NCBI RefSeq assembly: GCF_014635705.1
Contig: NZ_BMDI01000001.1
Span: 1,318,008-1,382,007 of the forward strand
DNA from: Oxalicibacterium faecigallinarum
GTDB taxonomy: Bacteria > Pseudomonadota > Gammaproteobacteria > Burkholderiales > Burkholderiaceae_D
Direction of reading: 5' to 3'
DNA: 64,000 nucleotides
Shown: positions 11,200 to 56,457 of the stretch, one piece after another
How the letters are laid out: each line of letters begins with the position of its first letter
How positions within the stretch are numbered: position 1 is the stretch's first letter
The notes under the pieces: model-generated
Databases searched by the model: none
Seen by the model: only the letters and a program-made list of their open reading frames with translations
What the model was told of the DNA's origin: nothing
Program-made: the position numbers and the translations under genes

Positions 11200-11292
11200 C
11201 TGTTGTACCGCTCGGGGTCCTGCGCTGCGGCGCGGGTGAGAAATACCCGTTGAACCTGATTGAGGTAATCCTCGCGCAGGAAAGCACGTCCT
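11200..11292 (+). promoter_or_regulatory. TPP riboswitch (THI box)
   Basis: Conserved THI-box elements occur in order: CTCGGGGTCC at 11211, GGTGAGAAATACCCGTTGAA around 11235-11254, CCTGATTGAGGTAATCCTCG around 11255-11275, and GCGCAGGAAAGC to about 11285. It lies in the leader of the cytX-type permease. Thiamine pyrophosphate binding is expected to lower expression of that gene, either at translation initiation or by termination; no clear T-run terminator is seen before the gene, which favours translational control. Confidence 0.93.
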
Positions 11293-11353
11293 CCCCGCCC
11301 AGCCTCTTGGCGCGGCGCCGAAGCAGCTGACCTGCCAACATTGAAAGTTGATG

Positions 11354-25897: not shown

Positions 25898-26344
25898 TCA
25901 ACGAGAAGCAGGAATACGATTCAGAATTGCCCAGTAAAAACCAACCTTGGAAACTTCTTCAAAAAACTTTTCAGACTCGACCGGCTTGACCAGATAACTG
26001 TTCACGCCCAGTTCGTAACAACGCACGATATCCGGCTCTTCCGCACTGGATGTCAGCATGATCACCGGAATAATGCGTGTCCGCGGATCGCCCTTGATCA
26101 CGCTCAACACTTCCAGTCCAGTGACTTTCGGCATCTTCAGGTCCAGCATGATCAGCGTCGGATCACCTTCGACGCGGCCGGCAAACTCCCCTTCACGCGC
26201 AATGTAATCCAGCGCCTGCTGGCCGTCTTTTACCCACGTAATGTTATTGACCAGTCCCACGCGTTTAAGTGCGCGCATGGTCATTTCGGCATCGGTCGCC
26301 GTATCTTCGACAAGCAGAATATGCACTGGCAACAAATCATTCAT
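25898..26344 (-). CDS. Single-domain response regulator
   Basis: 148 residues consisting only of a receiver domain: acidic cluster [11 protein letters not shown], phosphoacceptor Asp in [17 protein letters not shown], conserved Thr/Ser (VIMLTSS) and Lys ([15 protein letters not shown]). There is no output domain, so it acts by protein contact or phosphotransfer. Its start overlaps the upstream kinase stop by 4 bp. It closely resembles the 151-residue receiver gene at 51589-52044 (both have an SSxEExDxVRxYELGVNxYxVKPV pattern), indicating paralogous modules. Confidence 0.93.
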
Positions 26345-41902: not shown

Positions 41903-41932
41903 AAGTTGCGAAGTTGCGCAACTTCGCAACTT
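41903..41932. promoter_or_regulatory. 30-bp perfect palindrome before the HTH-ImmA gene
   Basis: Each arm is 15 bp (left arm AAGTTGCGAAGTTGC) and itself contains a tandem GTTGCGAA-type repeat, so two operator-like half-site pairs overlap. The right edge is 16 bp before ATG 41949, where a bound repressor or RNA hairpin would block initiation. Autoregulation by the HTH protein is the simplest reading. Confidence 0.6.
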
Positions 41933-41948
41933 CGCATAATATCCACCC

Positions 41949-43097
41949 ATGAAATCCTTTATTAACGATTACCACACCCCGGGCCAGCTACTACTAACGC
42001 TACTGGAGGATAGAGGATGGAACCAACAAGTGCTGGCTACAGTATTAGGCGTTGATAAGTCAGGCATTACCAGACTTGTTTCAGATCAACGCACGTTTGA
42101 CGCAACAATTGCCTTAGCACTTGAAGGGCTATTTGACGTTCCAGCAGAGCAATTTCTAGCATTACAAGCGAAACATGATCTTTCCAGAGCTAGATTGGCC
42201 GTTACACCCGATCCTGGAATGCTAACTAGAGCAAAATTATTTGGCGAACTACCAATTGCCGAAATGATTCGTAGAGGCTGGTTAGACACTTCTGACGCAA
42301 AAGATAGTAGAGCCGTTGAACAATCTTTATTGAAATTCTTTGATGTGGAAAGTGCAGATGAAATTACATCGTTGCCTCACGCCGCAAAGAAATCTAATGC
42401 AGAAATACCCGCCACACCAGTTCAATTAGCCTGGTTACACCGTGCCAGAGAAATTGCAAGCGAGATGATTGTAGCTCGCTACTCTCAAGCTAATGGACGC
42501 AAAGCTGTACTCAAATTGAAAGAGTTGCTGCTAGCCGCGGAAGAAGCCAGAAAGGTACCTAGAATTCTCGCCGAATCTGGAATCAGATTTGTAATAGTTG
42601 AAACTCTTACGTCCGCAAAAATTGACGGTGCTTGTTTTTGGTTGAACGATACAGCTCCAGTCATAGCAATGACTATGAGATTTGATCGCATCGATAATTT
42701 TTGGTTTGTACTTAGACACGAACTAGAACATGTACTTCAAGGCCATGGAAAGAATGGCTCCCCCGTCATCGATTATGAATTAGAAGGTGAACGTGCTGGT
42801 TCTGGCGATAACGTATCTGAAGAAGAACGTATAGCAAATGATGCTGCGTCAGAGTTTTGTGTTCCACAAAAACTACTCGACAGTTTTATTTCTAGAAAAG
42901 CACCATTCTTTGCCGAACGAGACCTGATCGGATTCGCAAGAACTATCAACGTGCATCCTGGTTTAGTCGCAGGACAAATCCAGCGAAAAACGGCTAGGTA
43001 TGATCGTTTTAGAAACCATTTAGTAAAAATGAGAAATATCGTGGCACCTAGTGCCATTGTTGACGGATGGGGCGATATTGCTCCAGTTGGCCTTTAA
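41949..43097 (+). CDS. HTH domain fused to ImmA/IrrE-type metallopeptidase
   Basis: 382 residues. The N-terminal XRE/HigA-like helix-turn-helix (about 11-75: QVLATVLGVDKSGITRLVSDQR) is joined to an ImmA/IrrE-type domain with zinc motif HELEHVLQGH (His257-His261) and a downstream acidic EERIANDAASEFCVP segment supplying the third ligand. Such proteins typically cleave or sense a repressor in toxin-antitoxin, prophage or stress modules. Codon use and base composition are AT-richer than the neighbours, suggesting horizontal transfer. The 159-residue gene follows by 17 bp. Confidence 0.87.
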   Translation: MKSFINDYHTPGQLLLTLLEDRGWNQQVLATVLGVDKSGITRLVSDQRTFDATIALALEGLFDVPAEQFLALQAKHDLSRARLAVTPDPGMLTRAKLFGELPIAEMIRRGWLDTSDAKDSRAVEQSLLKFFDVESADEITSLPHAAKKSNAEIPATPVQLAWLHRAREIASEMIVARYSQANGRKAVLKLKELLLAAEEARKVPRILAESGIRFVIVETLTSAKIDGACFWLNDTAPVIAMTMRFDRIDNFWFVLRHELEHVLQGHGKNGSPVIDYELEGERAGSGDNVSEEERIANDAASEFCVPQKLLDSFISRKAPFFAERDLIGFARTINVHPGLVAGQIQRKTARYDRFRNHLVKMRNIVAPSAIVDGWGDIAPVGL

Positions 43098-49681: not shown

Positions 49682-49943
49682 GCATTCCCTTCCTCTGGAA
49701 ATCTGTCTTCCCTTCGATTTCCGATTGTTTCCCCAAGAAATCCAAACCAAGCCTGATCCCCGCTGGTCACAGGTCTTATCCATATTTGCGCCCGTATGCA
49801 ATGAATAACAGGGTGTAGACCAGACGAACGCACTCACAGCAAAATCGAGGAATGCTATATTGTCACCTCCCTGATACGGCCCTGTATTGAATCTTTCTCT
49901 ATAGACAGAGTCTTATCTATCATCTCTCTCTTGCTCTGTTTTG

Positions 49944-51548
49944 ATGCCTGAAGAAAAAGAACAATACAAAGTCTTTCTGATCGACGACGAAACGCTCGGT
50001 GCCGAGATCGTTCAGCTCATGCTGGCATCCGAGGAAGATATCGAATTCAAAGCCGATCACGATGCGCGTACTGCGTTTGAAAAGGCGCAGATCTATGATC
50101 CGACCATCGTATTGGTTGATCTGCGCATGCCGCTGATCGATGGCTTTGATGTCATTCGCCAGTTCCGTAGCTGCCCTGCCCTGCAACACCTCCCTATCGT
50201 CATGCTGTCGTCGGAAGACGACCCTGCCCTGAAAGCCAAGGGATTTGCGCTGGGTGCCAATGACTATCTGGTTAAATGGCCGGACAAGCGCGAGCTGATT
50301 GCACGTATCCGCTATCACTCACGCGCCTATCGTGCCTTTCGCGAGCGTGACAATGCATTTTCTGCACTGGAGCAAAGTCAGGCTGATCTGCTGGCAAGGA
50401 CGCAGGAACTCGAGTTAAGCCGCTCTGCTCTGCTGCAAGCACAGAAGATGGAAGCGCTGGGCAATCTGACCGGCGGGATCTCGCATGACTTCAACAATGT
50501 GCTGCAGATCATCAACGGTTCCCTCAGTCTGCTGAAGCTGCAACTCAAGAATGACGAGCAGGCGCAAAAGCGGATCGAGGTTGCCCTGGGCGGCGTCAGT
50601 CGCGGTGCAAAACTCTCTTCGCAACTGCTGTCCTTTGCACGTCGACAGCCCTTGCAACCCAAAGTCACATCGATCGGCAAGCTTTGCGACGATGTGATGC
50701 AGCTGCTACGCCATGGCATCGGGCTGACCACGCCGATCGAAGTCGATATTGCTGCAGACCTCTGGAACGTTCTGGTCGATCCGGCCAAGCTGGAAAACGT
50801 GCTGTTCAATCTGGCAATCAATGCACGGGATGCCATGCCGAACGGCGGCACCATCCGCATTGCGGCCAGCAATATGCATCTGGTCCATGCCGACGTCATT
50901 GACGGCGATTATGTCCACATCTCTGTGCAGGATAGCGGCTGCGGCATGACAGACGCGGTGGCACAGCGCGTATTCGAACCCTTCTTCACAACCAAACCTG
51001 ATGGTCAGGGCAGTGGGCTTGGCCTGAGCATGGCCTACGGTTTCGTCAAACAGAGCAAGGGACACATCGAGATCGAAAGTACACTCGACGTCGGTACAAC
51101 CGTCCATATCTATCTACCGCGTGCGCAGACTGCATCTGCGCCGGCACCCAAGGAAGAAATCCCGCAAGATGTCAACGGGGCCGAATCCATTCTGGTAGTC
51201 GATGACGAAGAAGACGTGCGTCAGGCAACGGGAGAATTGCTGCGCTCGCTGGGTTATCGCGTCGTGGAATCACACAATGGTGAGGATGCTCTGGAAACCG
51301 TGAAAAAGAATCCGGACATCGATCTGATTTTCACCGACGTTATCATGCCAGGCAACATGCGGAGTGTGGACTTCGTTGCAGCGGCACAGGCCTTGCGGCC
51401 GGACTTGGCCGTACTGTTTACATCCGGATATGTACGTCCTGACATCCTGTCCGAATGGAAAAACCAGTCGCATATCCGACTGCTTTCCAAACCTTACGAT
51501 GTGCAGGATCTGGCGACGAAAATCAGAAAGCTTCTGGATAACCGCTAA
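49944..51548 (+). CDS. Hybrid sensor kinase, REC-HisKA-HATPase-REC
   Basis: 534 residues from ATG 49944 (a TTG lies one codon earlier). N-terminal receiver (about 8-125; VFLIDDE, VLVDLRMP), helical linker, HisKA with LTGGISHDFNNVLQIING, HATPase with NLAINARDAMP and GSGLGLSMAYGFVKQS, and a second receiver (about 415-530; VVDDEEDVRQA, FTDVIMPG). No membrane helix: a cytoplasmic phosphorelay node. Begins a sensory cluster with the phytochrome and the second hybrid kinase. No ribosome site is obvious. Confidence 0.9.
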   Translation: MPEEKEQYKVFLIDDETLGAEIVQLMLASEEDIEFKADHDARTAFEKAQIYDPTIVLVDLRMPLIDGFDVIRQFRSCPALQHLPIVMLSSEDDPALKAKGFALGANDYLVKWPDKRELIARIRYHSRAYRAFRERDNAFSALEQSQADLLARTQELELSRSALLQAQKMEALGNLTGGISHDFNNVLQIINGSLSLLKLQLKNDEQAQKRIEVALGGVSRGAKLSSQLLSFARRQPLQPKVTSIGKLCDDVMQLLRHGIGLTTPIEVDIAADLWNVLVDPAKLENVLFNLAINARDAMPNGGTIRIAASNMHLVHADVIDGDYVHISVQDSGCGMTDAVAQRVFEPFFTTKPDGQGSGLGLSMAYGFVKQSKGHIEIESTLDVGTTVHIYLPRAQTASAPAPKEEIPQDVNGAESILVVDDEEDVRQATGELLRSLGYRVVESHNGEDALETVKKNPDIDLIFTDVIMPGNMRSVDFVAAAQALRPDLAVLFTSGYVRPDILSEWKNQSHIRLLSKPYDVQDLATKIRKLLDNR

Positions 51549-51588: not shown

Positions 51589-52044
51589 TCATGCGCGACG
51601 ATGCGTGCGCACGGAACCTGGCGGCGGCTCGTTGAGCACCGCCCAGAAAATACCGAGATCCGAGATTGCCTTGATGAATTCCTGAAAGTCCACAGGCTTC
51701 ACGACATAGGCATTGACCCCGAGTTCGTAACTGCGCACCAGATCCTGCTCTTCCTTGGATGAGGTCAACATGACAACCGGAATGCTTTTGAGAACCGGCG
51801 ATTCGCGTACGTGTCGCAGTACCTCCAGACCATCCACCTTCGGCAGTTTCAGGTCCAGCAGAATGACGGCCGGATTGCCGGCAGGACGATCTTTATAATC
51901 GTCCGTTCCGTTCAGATACTGCAACGCTTCGCCGCCGTCGCGGATCACGATCACATCATTGGCCAGTTTGCTTTTCTCCAAAGCGACCAGCGTCAGCTCC
52001 AGATCATTTGGATTGTCTTCGACCAATAAGATGGGCTTTAACAT
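51589..52044 (-). CDS. Single-domain response regulator, partner of the phytochrome
   Basis: 151 residues, receiver only: LLVEDNPNDLE, ILLDLKLPKVDGLEVLRHV (phosphoacceptor Asp), VVMLTSS, AYVVKPVDFQEF. It starts 3 bp after the stop of the phytochrome kinase part on the same strand, the usual arrangement of a bacteriophytochrome with its response regulator. Paralogous to the 148-residue receiver at 25898-26344. Confidence 0.92.
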   Translation of the reverse strand: MLKPILLVEDNPNDLELTLVALEKSKLANDVIVIRDGGEALQYLNGTDDYKDRPAGNPAVILLDLKLPKVDGLEVLRHVRESPVLKSIPVVMLTSSKEEQDLVRSYELGVNAYVVKPVDFQEFIKAISDLGIFWAVLNEPPPGSVRTHRRA

Positions 52045-52047
52045 GCG

Positions 52048-53451
52048 TCATTCCTCTTCGACTTGCACTTGTTTCGGGAGCGAGAACGAGAAAACCGAGC
52101 CTTCGTTCAAGGTGCTGTCGGCCCATACCGCGCCCCCATGTCGTTCAATAATCCGTTTGACGTTAGCCAGACCGATCCCGGTCCCCTCAAACTCTTCCAT
52201 CCTGTGCAGTCGCTGAAACACACCAAACAGCTTGTGCACGTAATTCTTGTCGAAACCCACGCCATTGTCCCGTATATGAAAGACATACGCTGATGTAGTT
52301 TCTTCGGAAAACACCTCAATAATCGATTCGTCGCGATTGCGGGAGTACTTCACCGCATTTGACAGCAGATTGTACAGCGCGAGATTCAAGAATGTGGCGT
52401 CACCTGTCACAACAGGCAATGGCGCAATATTCCACGTGATTTTACGACCACCCACTTCATTGGAAAACCGCTCGATACAGGCATCGACCAATTCGTTCAT
52501 ATCCACACTGGACAGCGTCAACGCAGATCGTCCCATCTGCGAAAAACTCAGCAGATCGTCAACCAACTTCCCGGCGAAATGGGCCGAACTCTTGATCTTG
52601 CCAATGAAGCTGACGCCACGCTCGCTCAACGCATCGCTCTCCATTTCCAGCAGCAAGTCCGCGAAACCAGCGATATGTCTCAACGGTGAACGCAAATCAT
52701 GCGATACCGAATAGGAGAACGATTCCAACTCCTTATTCACGCGACCGAGATGCTCCGCCATCTCCGCCATTTCCTCGGCGCGCTGCAACACGATACCAAG
52801 AATGGCCGTGCGAAATTCCAGAACCGTTTCAATTTCACTCGGGCGCCAGAGCCTGGAAGTCGCCTGCACGGTTTCGCTCCAGACTTCAAAGCTGCGGCGC
52901 GGAGAAAGCGTCTCCGACATGCTTGCAGCGCGCATCTTGGCATAGGGATTACCTGCCCAGTCGATGGTCTGCACCACTTCCGGACGGAACCAGATCAGGT
53001 AATGCTTGTGAATCTGTGAAATTGACACCGCGAGCACTCCACTCGCGACGTCTTTATATTCGACTGCCGGCGCGAACTCTTTGCTCAGGGAGTCTGTGTG
53101 GTAAATATCATCAAACGCCTTACGCTCCAGCCACGTCACCAGCTCGCTGATTTTTTGCACTTCGGGCGTTTTTCCAAATACCGAAATGTAACTACCTTGA
53201 ACCAAGGCTGCGCCCGATGCATTGGCAAACTCCAGCAAATCACTCGCGACCCTCGACATATTGCCGGAAAAATCCCCCGACTGACTTAGGGTCGCGAGCA
53301 TGGAGACGAGCCTACCTCGCAACTGCAGTCGATGATTAAACTCTTTGCGCTCTTCTGCAGCGTCGAAATGCAGCGTCGAAATGCAGCGCCAGAATCTGCC
53401 CGAGCTGCTCGCACACAGCCCGGATTTCGAACGCCACACGACGCGGCGCAT
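52048..53451 (-). pseudogene. bphP: Bacteriophytochrome, downstream part (PHY domain and histidine kinase) of a frame-disrupted gene
   Basis: Open frame to 53451, of which about 435 residues after position 32 belong to the phytochrome. It has the PHY domain with WFRPEVVQTIDWAGNP and the PRxSF tongue motif (SPRRSF), HisKA with [18 protein letters not shown], and HATPase with DNGVGFDKNY and GTGIGLANVKRII. It lacks its own N-terminal chromophore region, which is encoded in another frame just upstream. Deleting one 13-bp repeat unit at 53356-53381 would fuse the two exactly into one protein of about 748 residues. As it stands it could be made only by internal initiation. Confidence 0.88.
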
Positions 53452-54307
53452 GATCGTGGCAAGAAATCATGCCCCATAACTTGCCCCGAATCACGATTGA
53501 AATCGACATGGAGGCACACGTGCCCATGTTTTTCATGTACTGGATATGCACAGGCGAGACACTGCGCAACGTTGCCTGGCTTAGATTGACCGGCTCACCC
53601 GATGCCGGGGTCTGCGGCACCAGATAAGCGGGCTGATAATCCGCATCTGCAATCAGACGTACCAGATTGGAGACATACAGCGCTCTTGCCTGCTGCGGAA
53701 TGTCCGACGCCGGAAAGTGCTGATTGAGATAGGTGTGATAGCCATCATCCCGCGCTTCGGACAAGACTTCGCCGTGCTGGTGATGATCGAAACGGTACAA
53801 AAGCACACGTCCGAAGCCGGTGATCTTCTTGATCTCGCGCACGGCAATGTCACTCATGGCGCGTATCGTTTGCGCCGAGGTCACCTCACTGACAAATCGC
53901 GTGACAATCGGATGAAAGAAACGGAAATCCGGTGCCACCTCAGCCGCAAATTCAAATTCGAGAATCAAAACCTGTTGCGCATGATGCGCCAGCACGTCAT
54001 ACGCGCCGTGAGCCAGACGCAAGGTACCTAGATAAATGGGCTTGGCTTCTACCGTGTGGTTGGCAAGCGCATGCCGTAGCCATGTGCCGCCTTCGTCCGC
54101 AAATACCTCTGTCAGTGAACGCCCAATTACCTGTTCCGCGGAAAAACCGAGATGCGCGTCGACATTATCGCTGGCGTGCGTAATGACCTGGTCTTCTGGC
54201 GCGATGACCAGAAGAAAACCATAGGGCTGAATGCTGCCAGGAATGTGGATCGGTTCCTTGTCACATGTCGTCGCATCAACAAGGGGCTGTTCGATTTTTT
54301 CGGTCAT
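53336..54307 (-). pseudogene. bphP: Bacteriophytochrome, upstream part (PAS and GAF chromophore domains) of a frame-disrupted gene
   Basis: 323-residue frame, of which about the first 313 are phytochrome: biliverdin-attaching Cys15 in TTCDKEPIHIPGSIQPYG, PAS domain (about 20-125), GAF domain (about 140-310) with the diagnostic FPASDIPQQARALY and SPVHIQYMKNMG. It then runs into about 10 frameshifted residues (FRRCRRAQRV) and a stop. The break comes from a 13-bp tandem duplication. The truncated product could still bind biliverdin but has no PHY or kinase domain. No heme oxygenase (bphO) gene is in this window. Confidence 0.9.
53356..53388. repeat. 13-bp tandem repeat (2.5 copies) that breaks the phytochrome frame
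   Basis: TGCAGCGTCGAAA occurs twice in direct succession (53356-53368 and 53369-53381), followed by the partial copy TGCAGCG. On the coding strand the unit encodes part of LHFDAA. Thirteen is not a multiple of three; removing one unit brings the upstream and downstream frames into register. Confidence 0.95.
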
Positions 54308-54546: not shown

Positions 54547-56457
54547 ATGGATAACGCCGGTCTTTCCCACATTGCCGAATCGGACCGCTTCCGCCTTCTG
54601 GTGGACAGCGTCACGGACTATGCGATCTACATGCTGACTGTCGAAGGTTACGTCAATAGCTGGAACACAGGTGCGCAACGCTTCAAGGGGTATCGCGCGG
54701 AAGAGATCATCGGCAAGCACTTTTCCAATTTTTATACGGAAGATGACCGTGCTGCCGGCATTCCGGCACGCTCGTTGCTGACCGCAGAACGCGAAGGACG
54801 CTTTGAGACCGAAGGCTGGCGTGTACGCAAGGATGGCTCCCGCTTCTGGGCCAACGTGATCATTGACCCGATTCGCTCGGAAAAGGGCATTTTGCTCGGT
54901 TTTGCCAAGGTCACGCGGGATGTGACGGAACGCAAGCTGACACAACAAGCCTTGCAGCAAAGCGAACAGCAGTTCCGCCTGCTGGTACAGGGCGTGACCG
55001 ATTATGCGATCTACATGCTGGATGCAAACGGCGTCGTCACCAACTGGAATTCCGGCGCACAACGTATCAAAGGCTACAGCGCCAGCGAGATTGTCGGCAC
55101 CCATTTTTCGCATTTCTACACGCACGAAGATCAGATTCGCGGTTTGCCAGCCAAGACGCTGGCAATTGCCGCTTCCAAGGGACGGCACGAGCACGAGGGT
55201 CTGCGCGTACGCAAGGATGGCTCGCAATTCATGGCGAATATCGTGATCGATGCCATTCGTGACGAACTCGGCCAGCTGGTCGGTTTTGCCAAGGTCACGC
55301 GCGACATCACCGAAAAACGTGCCGCCGAAGAAGAACTGCAAAGAGCCAATACCGCGTTGCTTCAATCTCAAAAGATGGAAGCACTGGGCCAGCTGACCGG
55401 CGGCGTGGCACATGACTTCAACAATTTACTCGGCGTTCTGTCGAGCGGGATTGACATGCTGTCGCTGCAATTGCGCTCGAATCAGGATGCGCGCGTGCTG
55501 GACAGCATGCGCCGCGCCGTCGAACGTGGCGCGGGCCTGACACAGCAACTCTTGTCCTTCGCGCGGCAGCAACCGCTCAAGACCGAAGCCTGTCTGATCA
55601 ATGACGTCATCACCCGTTTTGAATCCGTCTTGCGTAGCGCCTGTCGCTCTTCAGTCGAGTTTGACATTGCCCTGTCGTCCGATCCGGCGATGGTACAGAT
55701 CGATCCCGGCCAGTTGCAAACCGCTTTGTTGAACCTGGTGGTCAATGCATCGGACGCGATGCCTGACGGCGGCAAGTTGCACATCTCGACCGGCACGACC
55801 GAACTGAAGCAGAACGAGATCGGCAATCTGCCTGCCGCGACCTATAGCGTGATCCGTGTCGACGACAACGGATGCGGCATGCCCGACGCAGTCCGCGAAC
55901 GCGCACTCGAACCATTCTTTACCACCAAGGGAATCAACAAGGGAACCGGTCTCGGTCTGAGCCAGGTTTACGGCTTCATCACGCAGTCCGGGGGCGATGT
56001 GCGCATCCTCAGCAAGATGGATGAAGGGACCTCGATTCTGCTGTACCTGCCGATTACACACAACGATGATCCTGCTGAGGCGCTTGCCAGTGACGGTTTG
56101 GAAAAAGTCCTGATCGTGGAAGATCAGGAAGACTTGCTGATGCTGGGTGCCGAACTGTTCCGCGCAATTGGATATGAAGTCTATACGGCGACAAGTGCGG
56201 AGCAAGCCATTGACCTGCTGACGGCACGCACCGATATCAACATCCTGTTCAGCGATGTGATGATGCCGGATGGCATGGACGGCATTCAGCTGGCGCACTG
56301 GGTGCGAGAACGTCATCCGCACATCAGAATCGTGCTGGCATCAGGTTATGCACGACCTGCTCTGCAAGCGCAATCGCAGAACGGCGAACAATTCCACTTC
56401 ATCAACAAGCCGTATCAGTTATCCGATCTGGCAAAAGTACTGCGGCGCGCCGCCTGA
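54547..56457 (+). CDS. Hybrid sensor kinase, PAS-PAS-HisKA-HATPase-REC
   Basis: 636 residues. Two very similar PAS domains (about 12-125 and 137-250; both share DYAIYML, the GFAKVTRD end and VRKDGS), so one is likely a duplicate of the other. Then HisKA with [19 protein letters not shown], HATPase with [14 protein letters not shown] and [13 protein letters not shown], and a C-terminal receiver (about 520-635; [12 protein letters not shown]). No membrane helix. Divergent from the phytochrome gene with a 240-bp shared upstream region. The core resembles the hybrid kinase at 49944-51548. Confidence 0.92.

Follow-up and report, generated by a model that had tools for sequence, protein, structure and literature searches.

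One of the closest described systems to the locus studied here is the canonical bacteriophytochrome histidine kinase paired with a single-domain response regulator. The locus lies in the window, by which we mean the whole 64-kb stretch of Oxalicibacterium faecigallinarum DNA that was analysed, and it shares with the canonical system the domain order (here spread across two frames), Cys15, the PASDIP and PRRSF motifs, the H, N and G boxes, and a partner receiver. It differs from a canonical bacteriophytochrome gene in that a tandem gain of 13 bp breaks the frame after GAF and before PHY.

Contingency loci usually consist of many short units that vary among isolates, whereas the array found here has 2.5 units. 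The tandem-repeat contingency loci treated in a review (PMC10710837) likewise have a slippage-prone unit, not divisible by 3, in a coding frame. Tandem duplications inside a regulator coding sequence are also represented by spontaneous lrp loss mutations of Xenorhabdus (PMC6786866); those duplications span 26-116 bp and came under selection late in infection or when cultures were prolonged, whereas the window duplication is 13 bp long and has no known selection. The covS variants of Streptococcus pyogenes (PMC4072638) are similar in that tandem-repeat insertions in the coding region of a sensor kinase lead to a truncated product. Three such repeat-bearing variants were recovered from mice, while the window allele comes from one genome, with no selection shown.

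Results

An interrupted bacteriophytochrome gene

The window carries an interrupted bacteriophytochrome gene on the minus strand (Table 1), a strand that the original prediction had not given. The product of its 5' half is native to about residue 313 and then continues into a 10-residue out-of-frame tail ending at TAA. The 3' half, with Pfam matches to PHY (E 5.4e-51), HATPase_c (E 3.4e-23) and HisKA (E 5e-10), lies in a frame that is +1 relative to the upstream frame, as expected from a 13-bp gain. The PAS-GAF-PHY and HisKA-HATPase architecture is present when the two pieces are searched apart with Pfam, and in an orthologue (see below) it occupies one frame; a single continuous full-length sensor-kinase frame is absent from the window gene, which is interrupted at the tandem array. 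Each piece was also aligned by the NCBIfam BphP model NF041576, with scores of 232.6 and 80.5 bits that are far below the whole-protein cut-off of 1040. Across the two halves we found Cys15, PASDIP (at 199), PRRSF, the H-box, N-box and G-box, SPVH and ISCH. We take Cys15 to be the biliverdin cysteine, and the PASDIP motif, the conserved His of SPVH and ISCH and the other boxes to have their usual functional roles.

Table 1. Features of the phytochrome locus and other features of the window (positions in the window; the first base is position 1).
Feature	Position	Strand	Evidence or remark
5' half, PAS-GAF	53336..54307	-	323-aa ORF; PAS_2 E 4e-24, GAF E 4.8e-14
3' half, +1 frame: PHY, HisKA, HATPase_c	52048..53388	-	Pfam matches, identity to the orthologue
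Perfect 13-bp tandem array, 2.5 copies	53356-53388	minus-strand gene	net 13-bp gain relative to the orthologue, shifts the frame
First downstream-frame ATG past the upstream stop	53299..53301	-	34 nt beyond the TAA
Partner single-domain response regulator, intact	51589..52044	-	Response_reg E 1.4e-20
Divergent neighbour, PAS-PAS-histidine kinase-receiver	54547..56457	+	same position and orientation beside the orthologue
Convergent neighbour, receiver-histidine kinase-receiver	49941..51548	+	same position beside the orthologue
Second receiver protein	25907-26320 (G000:C1:1343914-1344327)		49% identical to the partner response regulator
Inverted 8-bp tandem arrays forming a hairpin	41903-41936		just before an ORF starting at 41949
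TPP riboswitch	11203-11299		

The partner response regulator begins 3 bp past the kinase stop. Its identity to the orthologue (95%) is much higher than that of its kinase (70-80%). These data bear out the structural part of the original prediction, which had been made from the letters without database searches: the coordinates and unit of the array are exact, the two halves in two frames each carry the expected Pfam domains, a 13-bp unit does displace the downstream frame by +1, the motifs said to be intact in both halves are there, and the response regulator follows at the distance claimed.

The first downstream-frame ATG past the upstream stop sits about at the start of the PHY match and is preceded by a weak AGG, and it is a possible re-initiation site. 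The locus could then be read as a split two-protein system, in which a PAS-GAF protein and a re-initiated 417-aa PHY-kinase (from the ATG at 53301) would act apart, for example with a light-blind kinase working on the response regulator. The spacing and the AGG fit such a scheme, and so does the existence in the structure bank of phytochrome PAS-GAF pieces of about 300-350 residues: the PAS-GAF fragment would resemble these chains, and the best-matching stretches end at residues 306-319 in the 60 matches listed out of 104. The ribosome-binding site is weak, however, and the ATG encodes a methionine that is present in the unbroken orthologue too, which argues that it is not a special start. We find the split system barely credible.

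The tandem array and its likely origin

The array consists of TGCAGCGTCGAAA repeated 2.5 times, with a 100% match across 33 bases. On the coding strand it reads CGCTGCATTTCGA twice followed by CGCTGCA, that is, three copies of CGCTGCA separated by two of TTTCGA, and its frame-altering unit (13 mod 3 = 1) stands in coding sequence. It tops the score ranking of the 24 tandem-repeat rows listed for the 64-kb window. The self-match at lag 13 is 20 bases long, a length never reached when the window was simulated 200 times under a first-order Markov model (longest 15), which rules out a chance origin of the array. A scan of 464 kb, made up of the window and a 400-kb sample of contig C1, listed four perfect arrays with at least two full copies, and no second one with a period of at least 11 and two full copies was found there; a genome rich in such arrays is thus ruled out for these 464 kb.

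The parent gene, as reconstructed, would have had a chance direct repeat of 7 bp within its GAF-PHY linker codons (CGCTGCA-TTTCGA-CGCTGCA, copies 13 bp apart). Because of this direct repeat, we propose an origin by slippage, in which the nascent strand misaligned on CGCTGCA at replication and 13 bp were duplicated. The repeat was absent from all three homologues in which the junction could be located (L003, L042 and L043), none of them of the same species, and the junction could be placed in only 3 of the 42 loci tried. As far as seen, the repeat is therefore accidental and local to this gene, with no sign of conservation. Since 20 bp of the array still match at lag 13, a reverse slip would be possible at low frequency, as for any short tandem duplication.

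Repeats of another kind occur elsewhere in the window, where two inverted 8-bp tandem arrays, AAGTTGCG twice and then CGCAACTT 2.5 times, form a 12-bp hairpin (z -6.2 when folded as DNA; Table 1). This is perhaps an operator or a 5'-leader hairpin.

An unbroken orthologue in the genus

A syntenic orthologue was present in G012, taken to be a metagenome-assembled Oxalicibacterium genome and placed in the genus of the window by a genome search. There the phytochrome is a single frame of 749 aa, and the array is absent. At the protein level the nearest public record is L007, which was taken as the same contig as G012:C76. The orthologue is followed by the same response regulator and flanked by the same divergent and convergent genes, so that the window and the orthologue contig share gene order on both sides. 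An unduplicated phytochrome in a close relative is what the original prediction had proposed to search for, and its length agrees with the restored protein of about 748 residues obtained there by deleting one unit. In the alignment of the junction, the window has 13 more bases than the orthologue (placed by the aligner as 2 + 11), and further gaps of 5 and 2 fall at the ragged ends of the slices. Protein identity to the orthologue was 216/310 for PAS-GAF (69-70% for the 5' half), 351/437 for PHY-kinase and 144/151 for the response regulator. The PAS-GAF half was matched at E <= 1e-30 in 3 of 13 genus genomes, and the orthologue was found in two of the 13, namely the window genome and G012. A scan of genome contigs for relatives returned 14 loci, the nearest 69% identical, in a collection from which records of this or very near genomes may be omitted.

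We used the orthologue contig to ask how many other genes of the window are split between frames. The contig holds 77 ORFs, of which 46 had any match in the window at E <= 1e-15 and 41 matched above 45% identity. Only one of these 41 comparable ORFs was split between frames, namely the phytochrome gene, and two others were partial matches within one frame. A generally poor assembly is thereby ruled out for the window.

These counts bear on the view that the array is an error of sequencing or assembly, or else that the culture used for sequencing had acquired the mutation. The allele does come from one genome, assembled in ten contigs. An exact 13-bp duplication is not a typical base-calling error, however, 40 of the 41 comparable genes are not frame-split, and no comparable array occurs elsewhere in the 464 kb scanned. 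The event is thus rare for both gene and genome, which favours a real single mutation over a noisy assembly, and we regard an artefact or culture mutation as unlikely.

Phytochromes in the family and in the window genome

The PAS-GAF half was matched (E <= 1e-60) at 107 places in 86 of 294 family genomes. In 104 of these places the frame stays open for 732 codons or more, the exceptions being the window gene, one place in G203 and G185:C77; three exceptions among 107 suggest that occasional phytochrome loss occurs. The G203 gene (L096, G203:C1:7074000-7079500) contains a stop and a frame change, and it lacks roughly 130-150 codons in comparison with two relatives. The G185 gene (L097, G185:C77:1-9500) is a second phytochrome with one in-frame stop after a 511-codon frame, in a genome that also has a full-length copy. 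Both resemble the window gene in being interrupted phytochrome frames, and G185 and the window genome each keep a full-length copy; the lesions differ, with a stop, gap and frame change in L096 and an in-frame stop in L097, against a 13-bp tandem gain in the window gene. The full-length copy of the window genome is a second phytochrome gene of 740 aa, and the genome also has a haem oxygenase gene (69 bits against a family cut-off of 23).

The length of the GAF-PHY linker, counted from BLAST end coordinates, did not vary among the 42 homologues in which both parts could be aligned. This set was drawn from 47 frames matching PAS-GAF, with five set aside that had no PHY-kinase match in the same frame (L016, L017, L018, L020 and L096); within it, L008 and L046 look like two entries for a single sequence, and three members (L004, L005 and L006) are paralogues.

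A constant linker is relevant to the idea that the break is recoded, a +1 ribosomal slip in the overlap (at TTT_CGA of the second copy, or at AGA_AGA at the array end) yielding some full-length protein. The required shift is indeed +1, and +1 slippage at tandem rare Arg codons is known from over-expression in E. coli. Both AGA (2.7 per 1000) and CGA (2.4 per 1000) are rare among 13,419 window codons. The AGA-AGA in question sits in the out-of-native-frame tail, and a scan of 28 long ORFs showed no other tandem AGA/AGG pair. The candidate sites are probably accidental, however, because they lie in duplicated or out-of-frame sequence. A slip product would also gain four residues in a linker whose length is otherwise constant, so any protein that did leak through may itself be impaired. 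We hold recoding to be highly improbable.

The same observation weighs on the proposal that the phytochrome is phase-variable, with the 13-bp array gaining or losing a unit often and usefully, such that a clonal population would be a mixture of red-light-responsive and blind cells. A unit that is not a multiple of 3 and two intact halves are what such a switch would need. Several publications point the same way: tandem repeats are described as readily reversible by insertion or deletion, and histidine kinases as mutation hotspots in evolution experiments (PMC10710837); repeat-bearing insertions in the sensor kinase gene covS have been suggested to be another type of phase variation (PMC4072638); and tandem repeats are deleted at high frequency by RecA-independent template switching, although the E. 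coli repeats in that work were 101 bp, far longer than 13 bp (PMC8378479). Against this, 2.5 copies is about the shortest array able to slip, far from the many copies of a contingency repeat. The three homologues with a located junction (L003, L042 and L043) do not have the seed repeat, and the linker is without gain or loss in all 42 aligned homologues. A simple recent mutation also predicts an identical sequence. Among the open-access papers listed by our literature searches, we found no example of a natural phytochrome with a tandem-repeat switch; some of the text consulted dealt with a broken light-harvesting gene. An on/off switch would be mechanically possible but is unsupported. The cited studies make it possible and nothing more, and we consider it very unlikely.

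Age of the frame break

The 2,244 coding bases of the two halves are open throughout, with no further lesion. Given that 3.6% of single substitutions in these bases would create a stop, the absence of lesions bounds the neutral divergence since the break at less than about 2% or less than about 1% (95%; for an assumed indel/substitution ratio of 0.03 or 0.1, respectively). Relative-rate tests compared the window genome with G012. With L042 as outgroup, the counts were 15 v 21 for PAS-GAF (chi-square 1.00) and 20 v 12 for PHY-HK (2.00); with L043 they were 15 v 17 (0.12) and 20 v 17 (0.24). The response regulator gave 2 v 1 (0.33). No significant excess of amino-acid change was thus seen on the window-genome branch with either outgroup, although the PHY-HK count with L042 leans, not significantly, to faster change there. 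Against the single orthologue, dS was saturated (1.6-3.6), so that only the direction of dN/dS is usable; it points to strong long-term purifying selection and is silent on the time since the break.

The break in the phytochrome frame looks recent, as the original prediction had judged, because the motifs checked are kept, there is no second lesion and there is no significant excess change. We rule out an old decaying pseudogene on the lack of an extra lesion together with the lack of significant excess change.

Discussion

We interpret the locus as one of two phytochrome genes, present here as a recent loss-of-function allele that could revert by chance, with a probability of roughly 0.83. 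The array is exact and not due to chance, and a syntenic 749-aa orthologue lacks the extra 13 bp. One of 41 comparable window genes is frame-split, and no similar array was seen in the 464 kb scanned. No further lesion and no significant rate excess were detected, occasional loss is seen in the family (3 of 107 places, this one included), and a full-length 740-aa paralogue and a haem oxygenase remain. Tandem duplications are among the spontaneous loss mutations described for the bacterial regulator lrp (PMC6786866). On the other side, the allele is known from one genome and might have arisen in culture or in the assembly, some activity could remain through re-initiation or leaky frameshifting, and one of the four phytochrome rate counts (PHY-HK with L042) tends, without significance, towards faster change. 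Of the interpretation first offered for this DNA, the tandem duplication, the frame break, the intact halves, the recency and the unduplicated relative have all stood; the suggested on/off switch is not supported, the array being near the shortest able to slip and its seed repeat missing from the three homologues located.

The consequences of a loss-of-function allele can be outlined from the reading frames. Translation would end after the PAS-GAF part and a few foreign residues, so under standard translation no continuous sensor kinase is predicted and the kinase half is not joined to its sensor. Light control of the partner response regulator would be lost or much reduced. The PAS-GAF fragment may still bind biliverdin, which is probably still supplied, and it would be unable to signal to its kinase.

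If the array does flip, the gene would be a phase-variable phytochrome, for which the open-access papers listed by our searches gave no example. The locus also calls for caution in annotation: a gene finder may report the broken phytochrome as two unrelated ORFs, and the strain has two phytochrome genes and probably only one full-length product. Because a haem oxygenase gene and the 740-aa phytochrome gene exist, some residual red-light sensing may persist in this strain.
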